Source: Actinomycetota bacterium (GTDB lineage: Bacteria; Actinomycetota; Acidimicrobiia; Spongiisociales; UBA4744). Taken from it: a stretch of DNA of 50,773 bases. The DNA lies in contig JAADGS010000074.1 of assembly GCA_013152275.1 (NCBI GenBank), forward strand, positions 1 to 50,773. The letters run 5' to 3'. How positions within the stretch are numbered: the first letter of the stretch is position 1; each line of letters starts with the position of its first letter. Positions 16,252-23,269 of the stretch are shown here, piece after piece. Under the pieces are notes generated by a model. It did no database searches. It was not told the DNA's origin and saw only the letters and a list, made by a program, of their open reading frames with translations. Both the position numbers and the translations under genes were made by a program.

Positions 16252-16831
16252 ATGATCCGAGTCGTGATCGACTCCACCTGCGACTTCCCCCAGGAGATCG
16301 TCGTCATCAGCCCCTCCTCACAACGCTCCGTCACCTATCCGGCGCCGCGCGTGGCTTCAGGACAGATGACGTCCATACCCGTCCGGGTCATCGATTCGAA
16401 GAGTTCGACGACCGGCTTGGGATTCCGGACACCCGAAGCCGCTCGGGCCGCCGCGAGTGGGGGCGATCTCGCCCAGGTGGACGATGCAGCCCCGGATGCG
16501 GTGCCAAAGACGAAGCTCTTCGCAACGGCCCTCCGGATCAAGACCGATGATCGAACCCGCCGAAGGAGTGGTGGTTCCTGCCCACCGGGTCCGAACGCGT
16601 GCAAAGGCCCTGGCCACCGTTGTGGATCGAACCGTCGACATCGGTGTAAGCCTTGAAGAGGCGGCCATCCTCCACGCGGATGTCCGAGAGGAAGCAAAGC
16701 GTCTCGCCGCCCGACCGGAGGCCTCCTCTCCCGTCTCCATCGCGGAGATCGGCCCGGTCATCGGAACACACTCCGGACCCGGAACCATCGGAGCCGCGTA
16801 TCGGGTCCGCCGTGTTCCGCTCTACACGTAG
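16252..16831 (+). pseudogene. Decayed degV (fatty-acid-binding DegV family) remnant
   Basis: The first frame opens like DegV (MIRVVIDSTCDFPQEI; the family has a conserved DSTCD-like start) and continues with VRVIDSKSSTTGLGF, EAARAAASGGDL and KTKLFATA, all DegV landmarks. The reading then shifts: from about 16543 the next frame carries IEPAEGVVVPAHRVRT, ILHADVREEAKRLA and IAEIGPVIGTHSGPG, which are the DegV C-terminal landmarks. Removing one A near 16543 would restore ATC AAG CCG ATG. The total is about 193 codons against about 280 in the family, so roughly 60 residues after the start and about 30 in the middle are also gone. Its end overlaps the 3' end of the convergent epimerase gene by 10 bases. 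Confidence 0.85.
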
Positions 16832-17652
16832 GATCGCCATGAATGGCGAGGTTGGTATCCGAGAACCGCCCGGGCCTTGTCGATCGACAGCAGCGTCTCG
16901 AACCCTTCGACCGGCCGTGTGAACGGCACGTCGGGGAACATGGCCTCCATCAGCGACCGGCTCGATCGGTTCATGCACGTATCCGCCGCCGCCACGAGGA
17001 ATGCCTGCGCTCCTGCAACCTCGGATTCCAGCGCCAGGCGTGTCGCCTGTGCAACGTCACGCGCATCCACGTACCCCCACAGGTTCCACGCTCGAAGACT
17101 CGGATCATCCCAGAAGCCGGGGAACCGTTCGTAGTCGGATTCCATCATCACGTTCGAGTAGCGAAGCGCAACATACGGTATGCCCGACCACCGGTTGAAC
17201 TGGGTGGCCATCTCTTCGCCGACCAACTTGGCCAGCGCGTAGTGGAACTCGGGCAGCCGCGGGTGCCGTTCGTCGATTGGCACATATCGAGGCTTCTCTC
17301 GCTCAAACGGTATGCCGATGAGTGTTTCGCTCGACGCCCACACGACCCGCTGCACACCCAGCATCGCCGATGCGGAGAACACGTTGTAGGTACTCATCGT
17401 GTTGATACGGAAGGTCTCCCCATCCGGCAGGACGTTCGGAGCGGGAATCGCTGCCAGGTGCACAACGCCGTCGGCGCCCCCCAGGGCTTCAATGGTCTGG
17501 CCCAGGTCGGTCAGATCGGCCACCAAGGTAGGCGCATCGGGATCCAGAGACGCCATCCGGTCCACATTGAGGACTTCGTAATCGTGATCGACAAGTTCCT
17601 GAACGACGTGTACGCCTGCCTTCCCGCTCCCACCGGTAACTACGATCTTCAT
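16822..17652 (-). CDS. NAD(P)-dependent epimerase/dehydratase (extended SDR)
   Basis: 276 residues from ATG 17652, preceded by AGGAAGG 8 bases away. The Rossmann loop GGSGKAGVHV is at residues 7-16, VVHLAAIPAP is the usual fourth strand, and YALAKLVGEEM carries the catalytic Tyr and Lys. Members act on nucleotide sugars or uronic acids; the substrate is not clear. The promoter side faces the plus-strand envelope operon at 17877. Confidence 0.85.
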   Translation of the reverse strand: MKIVVTGGSGKAGVHVVQELVDHDYEVLNVDRMASLDPDAPTLVADLTDLGQTIEALGGADGVVHLAAIPAPNVLPDGETFRINTMSTYNVFSASAMLGVQRVVWASSETLIGIPFEREKPRYVPIDERHPRLPEFHYALAKLVGEEMATQFNRWSGIPYVALRYSNVMMESDYERFPGFWDDPSLRAWNLWGYVDARDVAQATRLALESEVAGAQAFLVAAADTCMNRSSRSLMEAMFPDVPFTRPVEGFETLLSIDKARAVLGYQPRHSWRSYV

Positions 17653-17836
17653 ATGGGCATCCTTCCTCGATGCTCTTCCTCGTCCGACATTAGGAGGCTC
17701 GCTTCGCTCGCGGTACCGAGTACCGCCGTGCAGCACCGACCCAAGACGACGGGGCGAGCGCAACGGCCAGGACTTGGCTGCCTCACAACGGGCGCCCCAC
17801 CCTCTCGGGAGAATCCGTGCAAGGGCGCCCTTGCCA

Positions 17837-17876: not shown

Positions 17877-19184
17877 ATGCCACCGCCGCTTCCAGATCGC
17901 TATCGGCTCGAGCAGAGACTCGGTCGTGACGGCGATATCGAGGAATGGCTGGCGACCGACACGCTGCTCGATCGACCGGTTCTTATTCGGGCTCTGGGGC
18001 CAGAGACCACGTCCAGTCGCAGAGAGCAGTTCGTGATGTCGCTGCGTGGGGTCTCCGGTGTAGCGCACATGCATCTTGCGAACGTATACACGGCCGCGCA
18101 AGTCGAGGGAGGTGCCTACTCCGTGACCGAGTGGACCGGCGGAGTCACCATGCAGGATCGCCTCAACGGCGGCGAGACCATGACGCCCGAGGAGTTCATC
18201 ACCAACGCCGCCGGTCTGGCCGGTGCTTTGGCGGCAATGCATCGAGCCTCCGTACTGCACGGGATGATCGACCCTTCTGCCGTCAGGTTCTCCAAGGCAC
18301 ATCCCGCCAAACTCGGCGCTTTCGGGCGACTACCGACCTCGACCGATGCCGCTGCCGACGTCGCGGCGCTGGCCGACACACTCCAGATCTGCTTGACCGG
18401 CGACACGGCCGCGTTCGCGCCGCCATCGCAACTCGTCGACGGAGTCTCGCCAACGGTCGACGAGGCGCTTGCAGAGGCACGATCCGGCGTCCTCGATGCT
18501 CGAGGGCTCGCTGCCGCTCTGCAGGCCGCGCCAAACGTGCCGAAGGCTCCCGAGCGCTCCAGTGGCTGGACCTGGCGCTGGCTGACACCCGCCTTCCTAC
18601 TGCTCGCCCTGGCCGCCGGTCTCGTCACCCTCGGCCTTCTTCTCTCCTCCGGATCCGATTCGCCCGCGTTGTTCCCTGCACGGCCGCCGACGTCGACGAC
18701 ACCTGCCACGATTCTCCCCCCGATGACCACGACTTCCACGACGACCCCCCACTCGACTTCGGCTGTCTCCATCATCAAAACCCTCGTGATCGATCCCTAC
18801 GGTGACAACGTGGAACACGATCGCAGCCTTCCCCTACTCACCGATGGGGACATCACGACGTCATGGAGAACCGAGCGTTACTACGATCCCCTTCCGCTCA
18901 TCAAGAAGGGGGTGGGTGTCGCCTTTGTGGTGACCGGTACCCCGGCCACCTTCCGGGCCAAGGCAGTGAGCGATGGCACCACCTACAGTTTGCTGTGGGC
19001 CCAGGAAATCCCGACTGATTTCTCCGGATGGACCCGGATCGCCGGTGGCACCGTTGCCGGCGAGAGCATCTCCCTCCAACTCCCCCGCCGCACCGGAGGT
19101 CTCTGGTTGCTCTGGCTGACCGAGCTGCCCCAGCAGGACGATGGCTACTTCACATCGATCGGCGAAATCGAGTTCGGCTCATGA
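17877..19184 (+). CDS. Membrane pseudokinase with extracytoplasmic galactose-binding-like domain (MurJ/MviN C-terminal-type module)
   Basis: 435 residues from ATG 17877, with AGGAGG 5 bases before. Residues 1-220 look like a protein kinase fold without catalytic residues: LGRDGDIEEW replaces the Gly loop, VLIRAL has Arg38 where the ATP-binding Lys should be, LHGMIDPSAVRF replaces HRDLKPxN, and LGAFG replaces DFG. A single membrane segment (about 233-257) and a Pro/Thr linker (270-295) lead to an outside domain of about 140 residues (LLTDGDITTSWRTERY...), as in discoidin/galactose-binding folds. In mycobacteria the same two modules are the C-terminal half of the lipid II flippase MurJ at this locus; here the flippase part is absent. 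The stop overlaps the sigma factor start (ATGA), so the two are coupled. Confidence 0.8.
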   Translation: MPPPLPDRYRLEQRLGRDGDIEEWLATDTLLDRPVLIRALGPETTSSRREQFVMSLRGVSGVAHMHLANVYTAAQVEGGAYSVTEWTGGVTMQDRLNGGETMTPEEFITNAAGLAGALAAMHRASVLHGMIDPSAVRFSKAHPAKLGAFGRLPTSTDAAADVAALADTLQICLTGDTAAFAPPSQLVDGVSPTVDEALAEARSGVLDARGLAAALQAAPNVPKAPERSSGWTWRWLTPAFLLLALAAGLVTLGLLLSSGSDSPALFPARPPTSTTPATILPPMTTTSTTTPHSTSAVSIIKTLVIDPYGDNVEHDRSLPLLTDGDITTSWRTERYYDPLPLIKKGVGVAFVVTGTPATFRAKAVSDGTTYSLLWAQEIPTDFSGWTRIAGGTVAGESISLQLPRRTGGLWLLWLTELPQQDDGYFTSIGEIEFGS

Positions 19185-19750
19185 ACAGTGATCAGGTGCT
19201 CCTGGATCGCTTCCTGGCCGGAGACCATCGTGCATTCGACGAATTGATGTTGCGTCATGAGGATCGTGTCTTCGGTCTCGGCCTCCGCATGCTCGGCAAC
19301 CGAGACGATGCCCTCGAGGCAACCCAGGAGACCTTCCTCACCGTCTTCCGTAAAGCCCATCAGTTCTCGGGTCGTTCAACATTCGGAACGTGGCTGTACC
19401 GAGTGGCCATGAACACCTGCTACGACCGTCTTCGCAAGGCCAAGCGCAGACGAACGGTTCCCCTGCCGGAATCCTCGGATCCTCCCGACCTGGCCTCGCA
19501 AGACGCTCTCGTCTCTGCCGAGCTTCGTCCCGACCTCCTGGAGGCGCTCGCATCCCTGCCACCTCAGTTCCGGGCAGCGGTCGTGTTTGTCGACCTCGAA
19601 GACCTTTCCCTCGATGAAGTTGCGCAAATCCTCCAGGTGCCGACCGGCACCGTGAAATCGCGCGTCCACCGGGGCAGAAAACTCCTCGCGGAGACACTCC
19701 GGAACTTTCACGATGTCTCCGCGCATCAAAAGGACGATGACTATGCATGA
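19181..19750 (+). CDS. ECF sigma factor, SigM-like by position
   Basis: 189 residues. Region 2 is seen in RAFDELMLRHEDRVFGLGL and DALEATQETFLTVFR, with FGTWLYRVAMNTCYDRLRK as region 2.3-2.4. Region 4 is QILQVPTGTVKSRVHRGRK near the C-terminus. It should direct RNA polymerase to stress or envelope promoters when released by its anti-sigma factor, encoded next. Start ATG overlaps the previous stop. The position between the MviN-type module and trxB matches sigM of Mycobacterium; the exact subgroup is inferred from position. Confidence 0.92.
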   Translation: MNSDQVLLDRFLAGDHRAFDELMLRHEDRVFGLGLRMLGNRDDALEATQETFLTVFRKAHQFSGRSTFGTWLYRVAMNTCYDRLRKAKRRRTVPLPESSDPPDLASQDALVSAELRPDLLEALASLPPQFRAAVVFVDLEDLSLDEVAQILQVPTGTVKSRVHRGRKLLAETLRNFHDVSAHQKDDDYA

Positions 19751-20444
19751 TCACGACATCGAACGCGTTGCAGCCGTCGCCGAAGGCCGGCTCGCCGGAA
19801 GTGATCTCGTCGCTGCCGAGGCCGCCATCGCCTCCTGCGAACACTGCTCCCGCGACCTCGAAGATCAACGCCAGGCGCTCACCTTCATGCGCCAGGCGGT
19901 GAAACCTGCAATGACAGAGATCGAGCGGGCCTCACTTCATCGAGCCATCCGCCGTGCCACCACACCCAAGCCATCACGTTGGCTGCGCCTCGCTCCCGCT
20001 TTTGCCGCAGCAGCAGCTCTTGTGATGGTGGTGGGTGTCGCCTCCCTGCTCGGTCGCGGAGGCAGTGTCACTAGCGAGAGTGCCGCCCCCACAATCGCCG
20101 TCTCGACCACGGCGGCCGCCACCAAGGGCGCCGAAGATTCCATCACCTCGCAGGAGAGCGCTCGAGACCTCGGCGTTGCCCCCGCCCCGGCGGCGTTCAC
20201 CTCCGATCTGCGCGAACTCGCCAACCGTCTTCGCGCCGAAAGCTCCCGGTCCACTCCTGAATCTTCCCCCCTCCAGGAGCATGTCTGTGACGCGCAAGCA
20301 TTACAGGAAGCGACCCGACCCGCCGTCGCCGTCGCCTACGTCACGGTCGATGATCGTGACGCACTGCTCTACGTCTATCCGAGAACCGCCCTGATTTTCG
20401 ACGCCGACACCTGCGCCTTGATCCAACGCATCCCAACGCCATAA
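19743..20444 (+). CDS. Membrane anti-sigma factor
   Basis: 233 residues from ATG 19743, which overlaps the sigma gene by 8 bases; AAGGA lies 8 bases before, while ATG 19737 is too close to it. The N-terminal 75 residues resemble a ZAS-type domain with CEHC, but the His normally three residues before the first Cys is replaced (AAIASCEHC). A membrane segment follows (LAPAFAAAAALVMVVGVASLLG). The outside part is Ala/Thr-rich and ends in about 60 residues with two Cys (HVCDAQAL and DADTCALI) that could form a disulfide. It should hold the adjacent sigma factor at the membrane. Confidence 0.8.
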   Translation: MHDHDIERVAAVAEGRLAGSDLVAAEAAIASCEHCSRDLEDQRQALTFMRQAVKPAMTEIERASLHRAIRRATTPKPSRWLRLAPAFAAAAALVMVVGVASLLGRGGSVTSESAAPTIAVSTTAAATKGAEDSITSQESARDLGVAPAPAAFTSDLRELANRLRAESSRSTPESSPLQEHVCDAQALQEATRPAVAVAYVTVDDRDALLYVYPRTALIFDADTCALIQRIPTP

Positions 20445-20553: not shown

Positions 20554-20838
20554 ATGAACGACATGGCCACACGCTTCGCGGACCTCCTCGAGACTGTTGC
20601 CACGAAGATCCGCTCCCTCACGGTCGATCGGCTCGCGCGGGGCATTCGCATCGCCACGGCGGGTCTCGTGGCATTCGTTTTGGCCCTACTGGCGGTCATC
20701 TATCTGATCGTGGCGATCTTTCGCGTCGTCGCCGTCCCCTTGACGATGGAAGGCGCCTACGCGGCATTCGGTGGACTATTCCTTGCCGCCGGAGTGTTCG
20801 TGTGGTTGAAGCGCAACCCCAAGGACGACAATGACTGA
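20554..20838 (+). CDS. Small two-helix membrane protein
   Basis: 94 residues with an amphipathic N-terminus (FADLLETVATKIRSLTVDRL) and two membrane segments (about 34-58 and 66-85), then a charged tail KRNPKDDND. No family is recognised with confidence; it resembles small holin-like or phage-shock-like membrane proteins in layout. The stop overlaps the trxB start by 8 bases, so it belongs to the same transcript. Confidence 0.7.
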   Translation: MNDMATRFADLLETVATKIRSLTVDRLARGIRIATAGLVAFVLALLAVIYLIVAIFRVVAVPLTMEGAYAAFGGLFLAAGVFVWLKRNPKDDND

Positions 20839-21754
20839 AGAGATCATCATCATCGGATCGGGCCCGGCCGGGCTCACCGCGGCCCTCTACGCCGCCAGGG
20901 GAGGTAATGCTCCCCTCGTCCTGGAGGGAAGCCAGGCAGGCGGACAACTCATGCTCACCACCGAGGTCGAGAACTTTCCCGGCTTCCCCGACGGGCTGCT
21001 TGGACCCGAGCTCATGGATCGTATGCGCAAACAGGCCGAGCGCTTTGGTGCGCGCATGGTCACTTCCGATGTCTCGAAGGTCGATTTCACGACTTCACCC
21101 TTCAAGGTTTGGGCCGGCGCCGATGAGTATTCGGCCAGGTCCGTGATCGTATCCACCGGCGCCTCGGCCAAGTGGTTGGGGATTCCTGGTGAGGATCGCC
21201 TCGTCGGTCGCGGTGTTTCCTCGTGCGCGACGTGTGACGGCTTCTTTTTCCGGGACCAGGAGATCATCGTGGTCGGTGGCGGGGATACGGCCATGGAGGA
21301 AGCCCTCTTCTTGACCACGTTTGCTTCGACGGTCCATATCGTGCATCGGCGCGACGCTTTTCGCGCTTCTGCGGTCATGACGGAACGGGCACTGGCACAT
21401 CCCAAGATCAACGTCATCTGGGATACGGTGCTCGAAGAAGTGCTCGGTGAAGATGAAGTCGACGCCGTGCGCCTTCGTAACGTCAAGACCGGTGCGGTGA
21501 CCGAGATGCGGATCAGTGGCGTGTTCGTTGCGATCGGCCACGAGCCCAACACGGGTCTCTTCAGGGGACAGCTCGAGATGGACGAGGTCGGCTATCTCTC
21601 CCTGACCGGTCCCGCTTCCACACAGACGTCCACCTCCGGCGTGTTCGCAGCCGGCGATGTCGCCGATTCTCTCTATCGTCAGGCGATCACAGCGGCCGGG
21701 ACAGGAGCACGAGCCGCCATCGACGCCCGCCGGTGGCTTGAAACACAGGAATGA
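20831..21754 (+). CDS. trxB: Thioredoxin-disulfide reductase
   Basis: 307 residues. The FAD loop GSGPAGLTAALYAA starts at residue 9, the redox pair is CATC (Cys132, Cys135), and the NADPH loop is VGGGDTAMEEA. The C-terminal FAD motif SGVFAAGDVAD is present. It reduces thioredoxin with NADPH. It is followed 46 bases later by trxA, and it lies next to a sigma/anti-sigma pair as in Mycobacterium, which suggests redox or envelope stress control. Confidence 0.97.
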   Translation: MTEEIIIIGSGPAGLTAALYAARGGNAPLVLEGSQAGGQLMLTTEVENFPGFPDGLLGPELMDRMRKQAERFGARMVTSDVSKVDFTTSPFKVWAGADEYSARSVIVSTGASAKWLGIPGEDRLVGRGVSSCATCDGFFFRDQEIIVVGGGDTAMEEALFLTTFASTVHIVHRRDAFRASAVMTERALAHPKINVIWDTVLEEVLGEDEVDAVRLRNVKTGAVTEMRISGVFVAIGHEPNTGLFRGQLEMDEVGYLSLTGPASTQTSTSGVFAAGDVADSLYRQAITAAGTGARAAIDARRWLETQE

Positions 21755-22159: not shown

Positions 22160-22294
22160 GACCGTGGTGGCCTGTAACTGCCCGAAGCCTTGGCGCGCGA
22201 TGTGGATGGATACTCGACTCCCCTCCAGCTCGCCCGACACTCGAACTCCGCTGCCGAGTACCTTCTTTCGCGTGAATCTGCAACGATGAGGGCC

Positions 22295-23269
22295 ATGAGG
22301 CTCTACCGTCTCGGCTCATCAGGAGCGCCTATTCGCGACATCCAGATCCGACTCGGCGCGCTCGGTTTTCCTTGCAGCGACGACCCTCCCGGCGAGTTCC
22401 GCGAGGCTACACGAGCAGCCGTGATCTCCTTCCAATCAGAGCGTGGCCTCCCTGCAGACGGGATCATCGGACAGGACACGTGGCGGGCCCTCTACGAGGC
22501 CGGATACAAGCTCGGGGACCGACTCCTCTACAACAAACGGCCCATGTTTCGAGGTGACGACGTCGCGGAGCTCCAGCGGCGACTCAATGCCCTCGGTTTC
22601 GATGCGGGCAAGGTCGACGGCATCTTCGGTCCCAACACGGTTCGTGCAGTGCTCGAATTCCAGCAGAACCGATGGCTCTCCGAAGATGGTGTCGCAGGAC
22701 CCGAGATCGTCGCCGAACTCGATCTCGTGTCCAAAGCCACACGAAAGACCGGACGGGAGGCGATCCGCGAGCGAGAGTGGCTCCGCGGTCTCCCCCGCTC
22801 GATCGCAGGAGCCCGGGTCTTCATCGACGCTGCCTGCGGGCTGGATGAAGAGGCGCGGGCCACGTGGGATGCAGCCGTCGCGGTGGCAACAGTCATCCAG
22901 GAACTGGGAGCCATCCCTCTGCTCGCGCGCAGTGCCGATGCCAGACCACCTGAGAGAATCCGAGCCCTACGCGCGAATCGTCTGGGAGCGGACCTGATCG
23001 TCGGCTTCCGGTTCCCTGCAGGCACGGGCCCGCTCGTCACCTTCTTCGCATCGTCGAAGAGCCACAGTGAGGCAGGTGCCGCTCTCGCAGCACACCTCGG
23101 CGCAGAGCTTTCCTTGCCTGTCGACGGACGCGCCCAGTCGCTTCTCAAGGAGACCCGCGCTCCCGCCGTCGTCATCTGTCACCTCTCCCCCGACGCGGAA
23201 CTTGGAACCTTGGTGGCACGAGCACTCTCCTCATTCTTCTCCCACGCAAGAGATCTCGCCGATGAGTGA
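22295..23269 (+). CDS. CwlM-like protein: two peptidoglycan-binding domains and a degenerate amidase-like domain
   Basis: 324 residues from ATG 22295 (another ATG at 22286 is in frame; the ribosome site is poor for both). Two PG_binding_1 units are seen: residues about 8-68 (IRDIQIRLGALGF ... PADGIIGQDTWRALYEAGYKLG) and about 80-145 (ELQRRLNALGFDAGKVDGIFG ends the consensus). A Rossmann-like amidase_3 relic follows, but the zinc His of the usual DxGHGG is missing (VFIDAACGLDEE). In Mycobacterium CwlM at this position is a cytoplasmic regulator of MurA rather than a hydrolase. There is no signal peptide, which fits such a regulatory role. Confidence 0.82.
   Translation: MRLYRLGSSGAPIRDIQIRLGALGFPCSDDPPGEFREATRAAVISFQSERGLPADGIIGQDTWRALYEAGYKLGDRLLYNKRPMFRGDDVAELQRRLNALGFDAGKVDGIFGPNTVRAVLEFQQNRWLSEDGVAGPEIVAELDLVSKATRKTGREAIREREWLRGLPRSIAGARVFIDAACGLDEEARATWDAAVAVATVIQELGAIPLLARSADARPPERIRALRANRLGADLIVGFRFPAGTGPLVTFFASSKSHSEAGAALAAHLGAELSLPVDGRAQSLLKETRAPAVVICHLSPDAELGTLVARALSSFFSHARDLADE

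Follow-up and report, generated by a model that had tools for sequence, protein, structure and literature searches.

Mycobacterial MurJ (MviN) ends in a dead kinase, and the presence of a similar module as a gene of its own raises the question of whether such a protein is a detached half of the flippase, a part of the sigma-factor system beside it, or a regulator with a history of its own. This question was addressed for P0001, a protein encoded in the window, which here means the whole 50,773-nt stretch of actinobacterial DNA that was analysed.

P0001 is a maintained gene of the pcnA–sigM–trxB locus

The P0001 gene starts with an ATG placed 6 nt 3′ of an AGGAGG, and its stop shares four bases with the sigM start (ATGA, 19181–19184), as an earlier note on this DNA had read (Table 1). 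A divergent NAD-epimerase gene lies upstream (16822–17655, minus strand), and a search for a sigma-70-like promoter upstream of the P0001 gene found none. From pcnA onward, the locus continues with the P0001 gene, sigM, a probable membrane anti-sigma gene, trxB, trxA, a gene for a two-repeat peptidoglycan-binding protein, parB, parA, and rsmG. This neighbourhood resembles the mycobacterial murJ–sigM region, and the order is matched in three mycobacterial loci (L092–L094), in agreement with the note's view that P0001 occupies the same locus. The sigM product scored 185.1 bits against NF007225 (SigM), narrowly missing the cut-off of 190, and the anti-sigma candidate gave a weak NCBIfam anti-sigma match (E 1.5e-05), well short of the cut-off.

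Table 1. Positions in the window of P0001, its parts and the genes that follow it
Feature	Position	Strand	Basis
P0001, free-standing MurJ-tail-type transmembrane pseudokinase, 435 aa	17877..19184	+	ORF, AGGAGG + ATG; MurJ-tail homology; purifying selection
Pseudokinase domain, residues 1-222	17877..18542	+	AF2, fold search, motif alignment, sequence comparison
Single transmembrane helix, about residues 233-257	18573..18647	+	AF2 helix 233-255; hydropathy maximum 239-257
Thr/Pro-rich disordered linker outside the membrane	18648..18767	+	pLDDT <50 at residues 257-294
CBM32 / F5-F8-type beta-sandwich outer domain, residues 298-435	18768..19181	+	AF2 alone; Foldseek, VIA
ECF sigma factor, SigM-like	19181..19750	+	Pfam Sigma70_r2 and r4_2
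Probable membrane-anchored anti-sigma factor	19737..20444 (alternative start 19713)	+	ORF; hydrophobic stretch; Cys pair CEHC
trxB, thioredoxin reductase, conserved next gene of the locus	20831..21754	+	ORF; gene order kept in other genomes

Two further genes of the window were noted in passing. An apparent broken DegV-family gene (16252–16831, plus strand) has its start, MIRVVIDSTCDFP, and its end, GPVIGTHSGPGTIGAAYR, in different frames; a seemingly intact counterpart is found in a relative of family f8 (L240:7163-8128). The protein at the CwlM position (22190–23269, plus strand) carries two peptidoglycan-binding repeats, and its C-terminal half, where CwlM has an amidase-type domain, gave no Pfam match; it is possibly a second dead enzyme of the cluster.

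Orthologs spanning most of P0001 were detected in 32 of 38 relatives; two of these orthologs are split or truncated at a contig end. The other six comprised one genome with a C-terminal fragment only, one 56%-complete genome without a match, and four genomes of a single family (f8) with kinase-level matches only. These weak f8 matches (residues 146–246 of P0001) were rejected as orthologs, and the regions L225 and L226 have neither a kinase nor a tail domain. The comparison with a congener yielded dN/dS values of 0.06 (pseudokinase) and 0.09 (outer domain). The spread of orthologs and the low dN/dS therefore indicated that the gene is maintained and not decaying. A separate collection covered 78 loci of the host's order, which we take to be the UBA5794-type Acidimicrobiia, a label that follows GTDB naming; 77 copies were readable for motifs and 69 for sigM adjacency.

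The kinase domain has lost all four catalytic residues

The AF2 model of P0001, built on 26 orthologs (mean pLDDT 84), showed a kinase fold at residues ~1–222. In a Foldseek search of the PDB, ranks 3–5 were pseudokinase chains of Rv3910, the mycobacterial MviN (3oun, 3otv, and 3uqc). By VIA, however, 3otv_C (Z 22.0, rmsd 2.8, 221 aligned) tied with PknB (1mru_B, Z 22.8). The structural search thus placed P0001 with an active kinase as closely as with Rv3910, and the fold alone cannot separate the two; the residues do. None of the residues of an active PknB-type Ser/Thr kinase (Lys, HRD Asp, Asn, and DFG Asp) is retained in P0001: the motif alignment showed that the β3 Lys is replaced by R38, HRD by HGM (128–130, with M130 for the Asp), the catalytic Asn by A135, and the DFG Asp by A148. 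These losses extend across the order, with Arg for the β3 Lys in 77/77 copies, Gly for the HRD Arg (G129) in 76/77, and the DFG Asp lost in 77/77. In addition, the activation segment, counted from the DFG position to the αF Asp (D161), is only 13 residues long, compared with 41 in an intact homologue (L137). Judged from these residues, the kinase fold can presumably no longer transfer phosphate, which is consistent with the dead kinase proposed at the outset.

P0001 resembles PknB, the mycobacterial PASTA receptor kinase, in its kinase fold, its membrane receptor layout, and two matching positions of the N-lobe dimer interface, but it lacks the catalytic residues and has a CBM32-like domain in place of the PASTA repeats. 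The ActPs3 pseudokinase family is reported to carry the motifs VALT and LSIDHPSR together with an activation-loop deletion (PMC12599244). The deletion is present in P0001, whereas the two motifs are absent and VLIR and HGMIDPSA are found instead.

P0001 and the mycobacterial MurJ tail are the same module

The rest of the chain also agreed with the note, which had described one membrane helix and an outside galactose-binding-like domain (Table 1). Modelled separately by AF2, the outer domain (~298–435) reached a pLDDT of 92. Its highest VIA score was with 4a42_B (Z 14.2, rmsd 2.0, 111 aligned), and many CBM32 entries exceeded Z 11 in the ranking, which assigns the predicted structure to the CBM32 fold. 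IFT25 and DOC domains ranked among these matches in Foldseek and VIA.

Profile comparison of P0001 with mycobacterial MurJ tails by hhalign (prob 99.8, E 3.2e-30, 414 columns) aligned the kinase, transmembrane, and outer domains in one piece. P0001 and the C-terminal half of mycobacterial MurJ (Rv3910; PDB 3OTV, 3OUK, 3OUN, and 3UQC; family ActPs3) are therefore the same module, as had been suspected. One of the mycobacterial loci, L093, was identified with Rv3910 through its match to 3otv (4e-149). The two share the order of pseudokinase, transmembrane helix, and CBM32-like outer domain, the pcnA–sigM–trxB locus, and a shortened activation segment. In contrast to the mycobacterial tail, P0001 is free-standing and distant from murJ, it shows VLIR, HGx, and xFG where mycobacteria have VALT, LSID, and no counterpart of the last, and no recruitment Thr at a conserved position was found in its orthologs. 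The alignment of P0001 with intact-motif kinases of its own class at the same locus was stronger still (E 7.3e-41).

Neither Pfam nor NCBIfam matched a MurJ/MviN flippase domain (PF03023, TIGR01695) in P0001, which has only one transmembrane helix, and no MurJ was found at any of the 78 loci of the order. The host genome, listed as 100% complete, encodes a single MurJ on another contig (G000:C80:9944-11191), which is 517 aa long and is filled by TIGR01695. It ends right after the family domain, so that the tail-less murJ expected elsewhere in the genome exists there and a full-length MurJ with its own tail, which was also looked for, does not. About 4 kb upstream of this murJ on contig C80 lies an ORF that looks transposase-like by eye (L227:4111-5595, plus strand), a possible clue to murJ relocation.

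Fusion to MurJ is confined to the mycobacterial family

The distribution of the tail domain across the phylum was then compared with that of MurJ. The domain is present in 166 of 396 genomes, nearly always as a gene of its own and usually between murJ and sigM. Among 80 loci with flanks, MurJ and the tail are encoded together in a single ORF at the seven loci of the mycobacterial family (f42; at one of these, L091, the kinase part went undetected by the profile) and nowhere else, and 32 have the free-standing gene with MurJ at the same locus, including the Streptomyces-like loci L086 and L087 (family f37, called Streptomyces partly by gene order). These counts used an iterated MurJ profile; phmmer with the host-genome MurJ as query missed the fused mycobacterial MurJ. 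L110 was rejected as a 1210-aa fusion, since its MurJ match lies in another ORF.

The free-standing gene is thus the common state, and among the sampled loci only mycobacteria have the fused form. The earlier note had described the flippase half as missing; MurJ is indeed absent from the locus, but nothing was lost from a MurJ, and the difference is better put as a fusion event in mycobacteria. The separate existence of the regulatory half, which the note had suggested, had already been published: the S6 legend of PMC10166564 mentions a 'protein kinase family protein' downstream of a tail-less mviN. This kinase gene of other Actinobacteria (L086/L087) is the same gene as that of P0001, with the same locus and domains and likewise apart from MurJ. 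It differs in that its motifs are intact in most families and that murJ is usually adjacent, whereas murJ has moved in the P0001 host. A literature search for the Streptomyces kinase-like gene (SCO3892-3894) gave no paper. P0001 itself is a free-standing, catalytically dead MurJ-tail-type module located away from murJ.

The link to SigM is conserved but not required

The note had further tied P0001 to a sigma/anti-sigma system, and in its strongest form this idea makes P0001 a dedicated third component of the SigM/anti-SigM switch, an envelope sensor that would free or sequester the sigma factor through its dead kinase. The four-base overlap speaks for such a role, as does the position of sigM directly downstream in 68 of the 69 readable loci of the order and at many loci across the phylum. 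However, direct reading of the four f8 genomes (L239–L242), which belong to the same order, showed sigM and trxB retained and the pseudokinase gene absent from an otherwise normal pcnA–sigM–trxB locus in 4/4; an anti-sigma-like ORF was seen to follow in two of the four. Conversely, in G016 (L228:6288-8976, a locus that L030 and L188 also represent) trxB comes directly after the pseudokinase gene without an intervening sigM, and elsewhere sigM was likewise not found between the gene and trxB at L067, L068, L095, and L128. The homologues that accompany murJ at 32 loci, and those fused to it in mycobacteria, also count against a dedicated partner. The linkage is therefore conserved but dissociable both ways, which weakens this idea, and we regard it as unlikely. 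What stands of the original proposal is the operon, and membership of one operon points to co-expression of P0001 and SigM more than to direct control of the sigma factor.

Intact homologues and a possible repeated loss of catalysis

Outside the order, all four catalytic residues are kept in 55 of 76 loci that encode kinase and tail in one ORF, among them 11/11 loci sampled from the remaining families of the host's class. Catalytic loss is thus no defining feature of the wider family. The intact kinase of L137 is PknB-like (E 1e-71). On their motifs, these homologues are presumably active. Broken copies are found in the host's order, in Actinomycetes-like families, and in a number of further families; some copies have only one residue replaced. 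It seems new that most of the phylum retains intact kinase motifs and that the host's order has lost them through replacements unlike the mycobacterial ones; a literature search found no study of the intact form. Intact-motif kinases with the same tail also occur away from sigM and trxB (L080-L085, L096, L099, L101-L103, L105, L111-L114, L117, and others) and form a wider family of CBM32-tailed kinases.

Whether the dead kinase of the order and the mycobacterial tail descend from one old inactivation, as members of an ancient pseudokinase lineage, was assessed with three trees. The kinase+tail tree required 3 changes of catalytic state and joined the broken copies; in this tree, a clade of the order with the Actinomycetes-like copies was not rejected (p 0.43), and a grouping of the order with intact copies of its own class was rejected (p 0.009). 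These results count in favour of a single inactivation. However, the broken copies sit on long branches, so attraction is likely in this tree. The tail-only tree, which is poorly resolved, required 8 changes and did not reject the grouping of the order with its class (p 0.49), and the trxB locus tree required 6, three of them forced by starred branches, and allowed the class to form a clade (p 0.42). Moreover, the replacements differ (VLIR, HG, and xFG in the order; VALT and LSID, with the DFG lost, in mycobacteria), which favours separate losses, and the gene neighbourhood is the same throughout. A single old inactivation is thus conceivable, and we hold it to be the less probable history. 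With moderate confidence, we propose instead that a murJ-linked CBM32 receptor Ser/Thr kinase was an ancient actinobacterial wall regulator that died more than once, in the order and in Actinomycetes (Streptomyces and mycobacteria among them), and whose fusion to MurJ in mycobacteria came later.

A proposed scaffold for cell-wall synthesis

In mycobacteria, according to PMC12599244, PMC6180346, and PMC10166564, the MurJ pseudokinase is a PknB substrate that recruits FhaA, and the linker of MurJ is bound by CwlM. Candidate counterparts lie ~34–39 kb downstream of P0001 on the same contig: a PknB-like kinase match, a PBP and RodA (both named from sequence only), a PP2C phosphatase, FhaB, and an FhaA_N+FHA protein. 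The docking Thr for FhaA (Thr947 in M. tuberculosis) falls in a gap of the hhalign alignment. A juxtamembrane Thr is present in 21 of 26 orthologs at no fixed position, and a non-aligned loop Thr could still serve FhaA recruitment. Two positions of the PknB back-to-back dimer interface, matched by hand, are invariant in the order (R8 and L31, 77/77), and most copies have Ala at the third (PknB D76).

The architecture of P0001 is well supported. Its function is suggested by this architecture and by the mycobacterial parallel, and its descent from an active kinase by the distribution of intact homologues. On balance, at roughly even chances, P0001 would serve cell-wall synthesis as a single-pass membrane scaffold that senses glycans, and its ancestor would be a catalytically active transmembrane Ser/Thr kinase whose gene lay next to murJ. 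The external CBM32-type domain is predicted to recognise either a glycan of the cell wall or a sugar carried on lipid II. The dead kinase inside most likely works by protein contacts; it may pair through its N-lobe and hold partners of the PknB/FhaA/CwlM/MurJ network, and in this way the condition of the external wall would be relayed to peptidoglycan synthesis within the cell. The mycobacterial module acts in cis because it is fused to MurJ, whereas P0001 would act in trans on wall synthesis, with a putative effect on MurJ. Against this scaffold stand the lack of a conserved docking Thr, the Ala at the third dimer position in most copies, and the fact that murJ is unlinked to the gene in the order. 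The CBM32 fold may also serve protein contacts, as in IFT25 and DOC domains, which counts against a glycan ligand.

If the proposed history is correct, the mycobacterial pseudokinase would mark the last stage of a signalling system that is still active in most of the phylum. The intact form, the free-standing dead form represented by P0001, and the fused dead form together provide a comparison set. The intact free-standing homologues at the same locus are the most useful lead. With them it becomes testable which substrate the ancestor had and why catalysis was lost, which bears on the question of why mycobacterial MurJ has a dead kinase.
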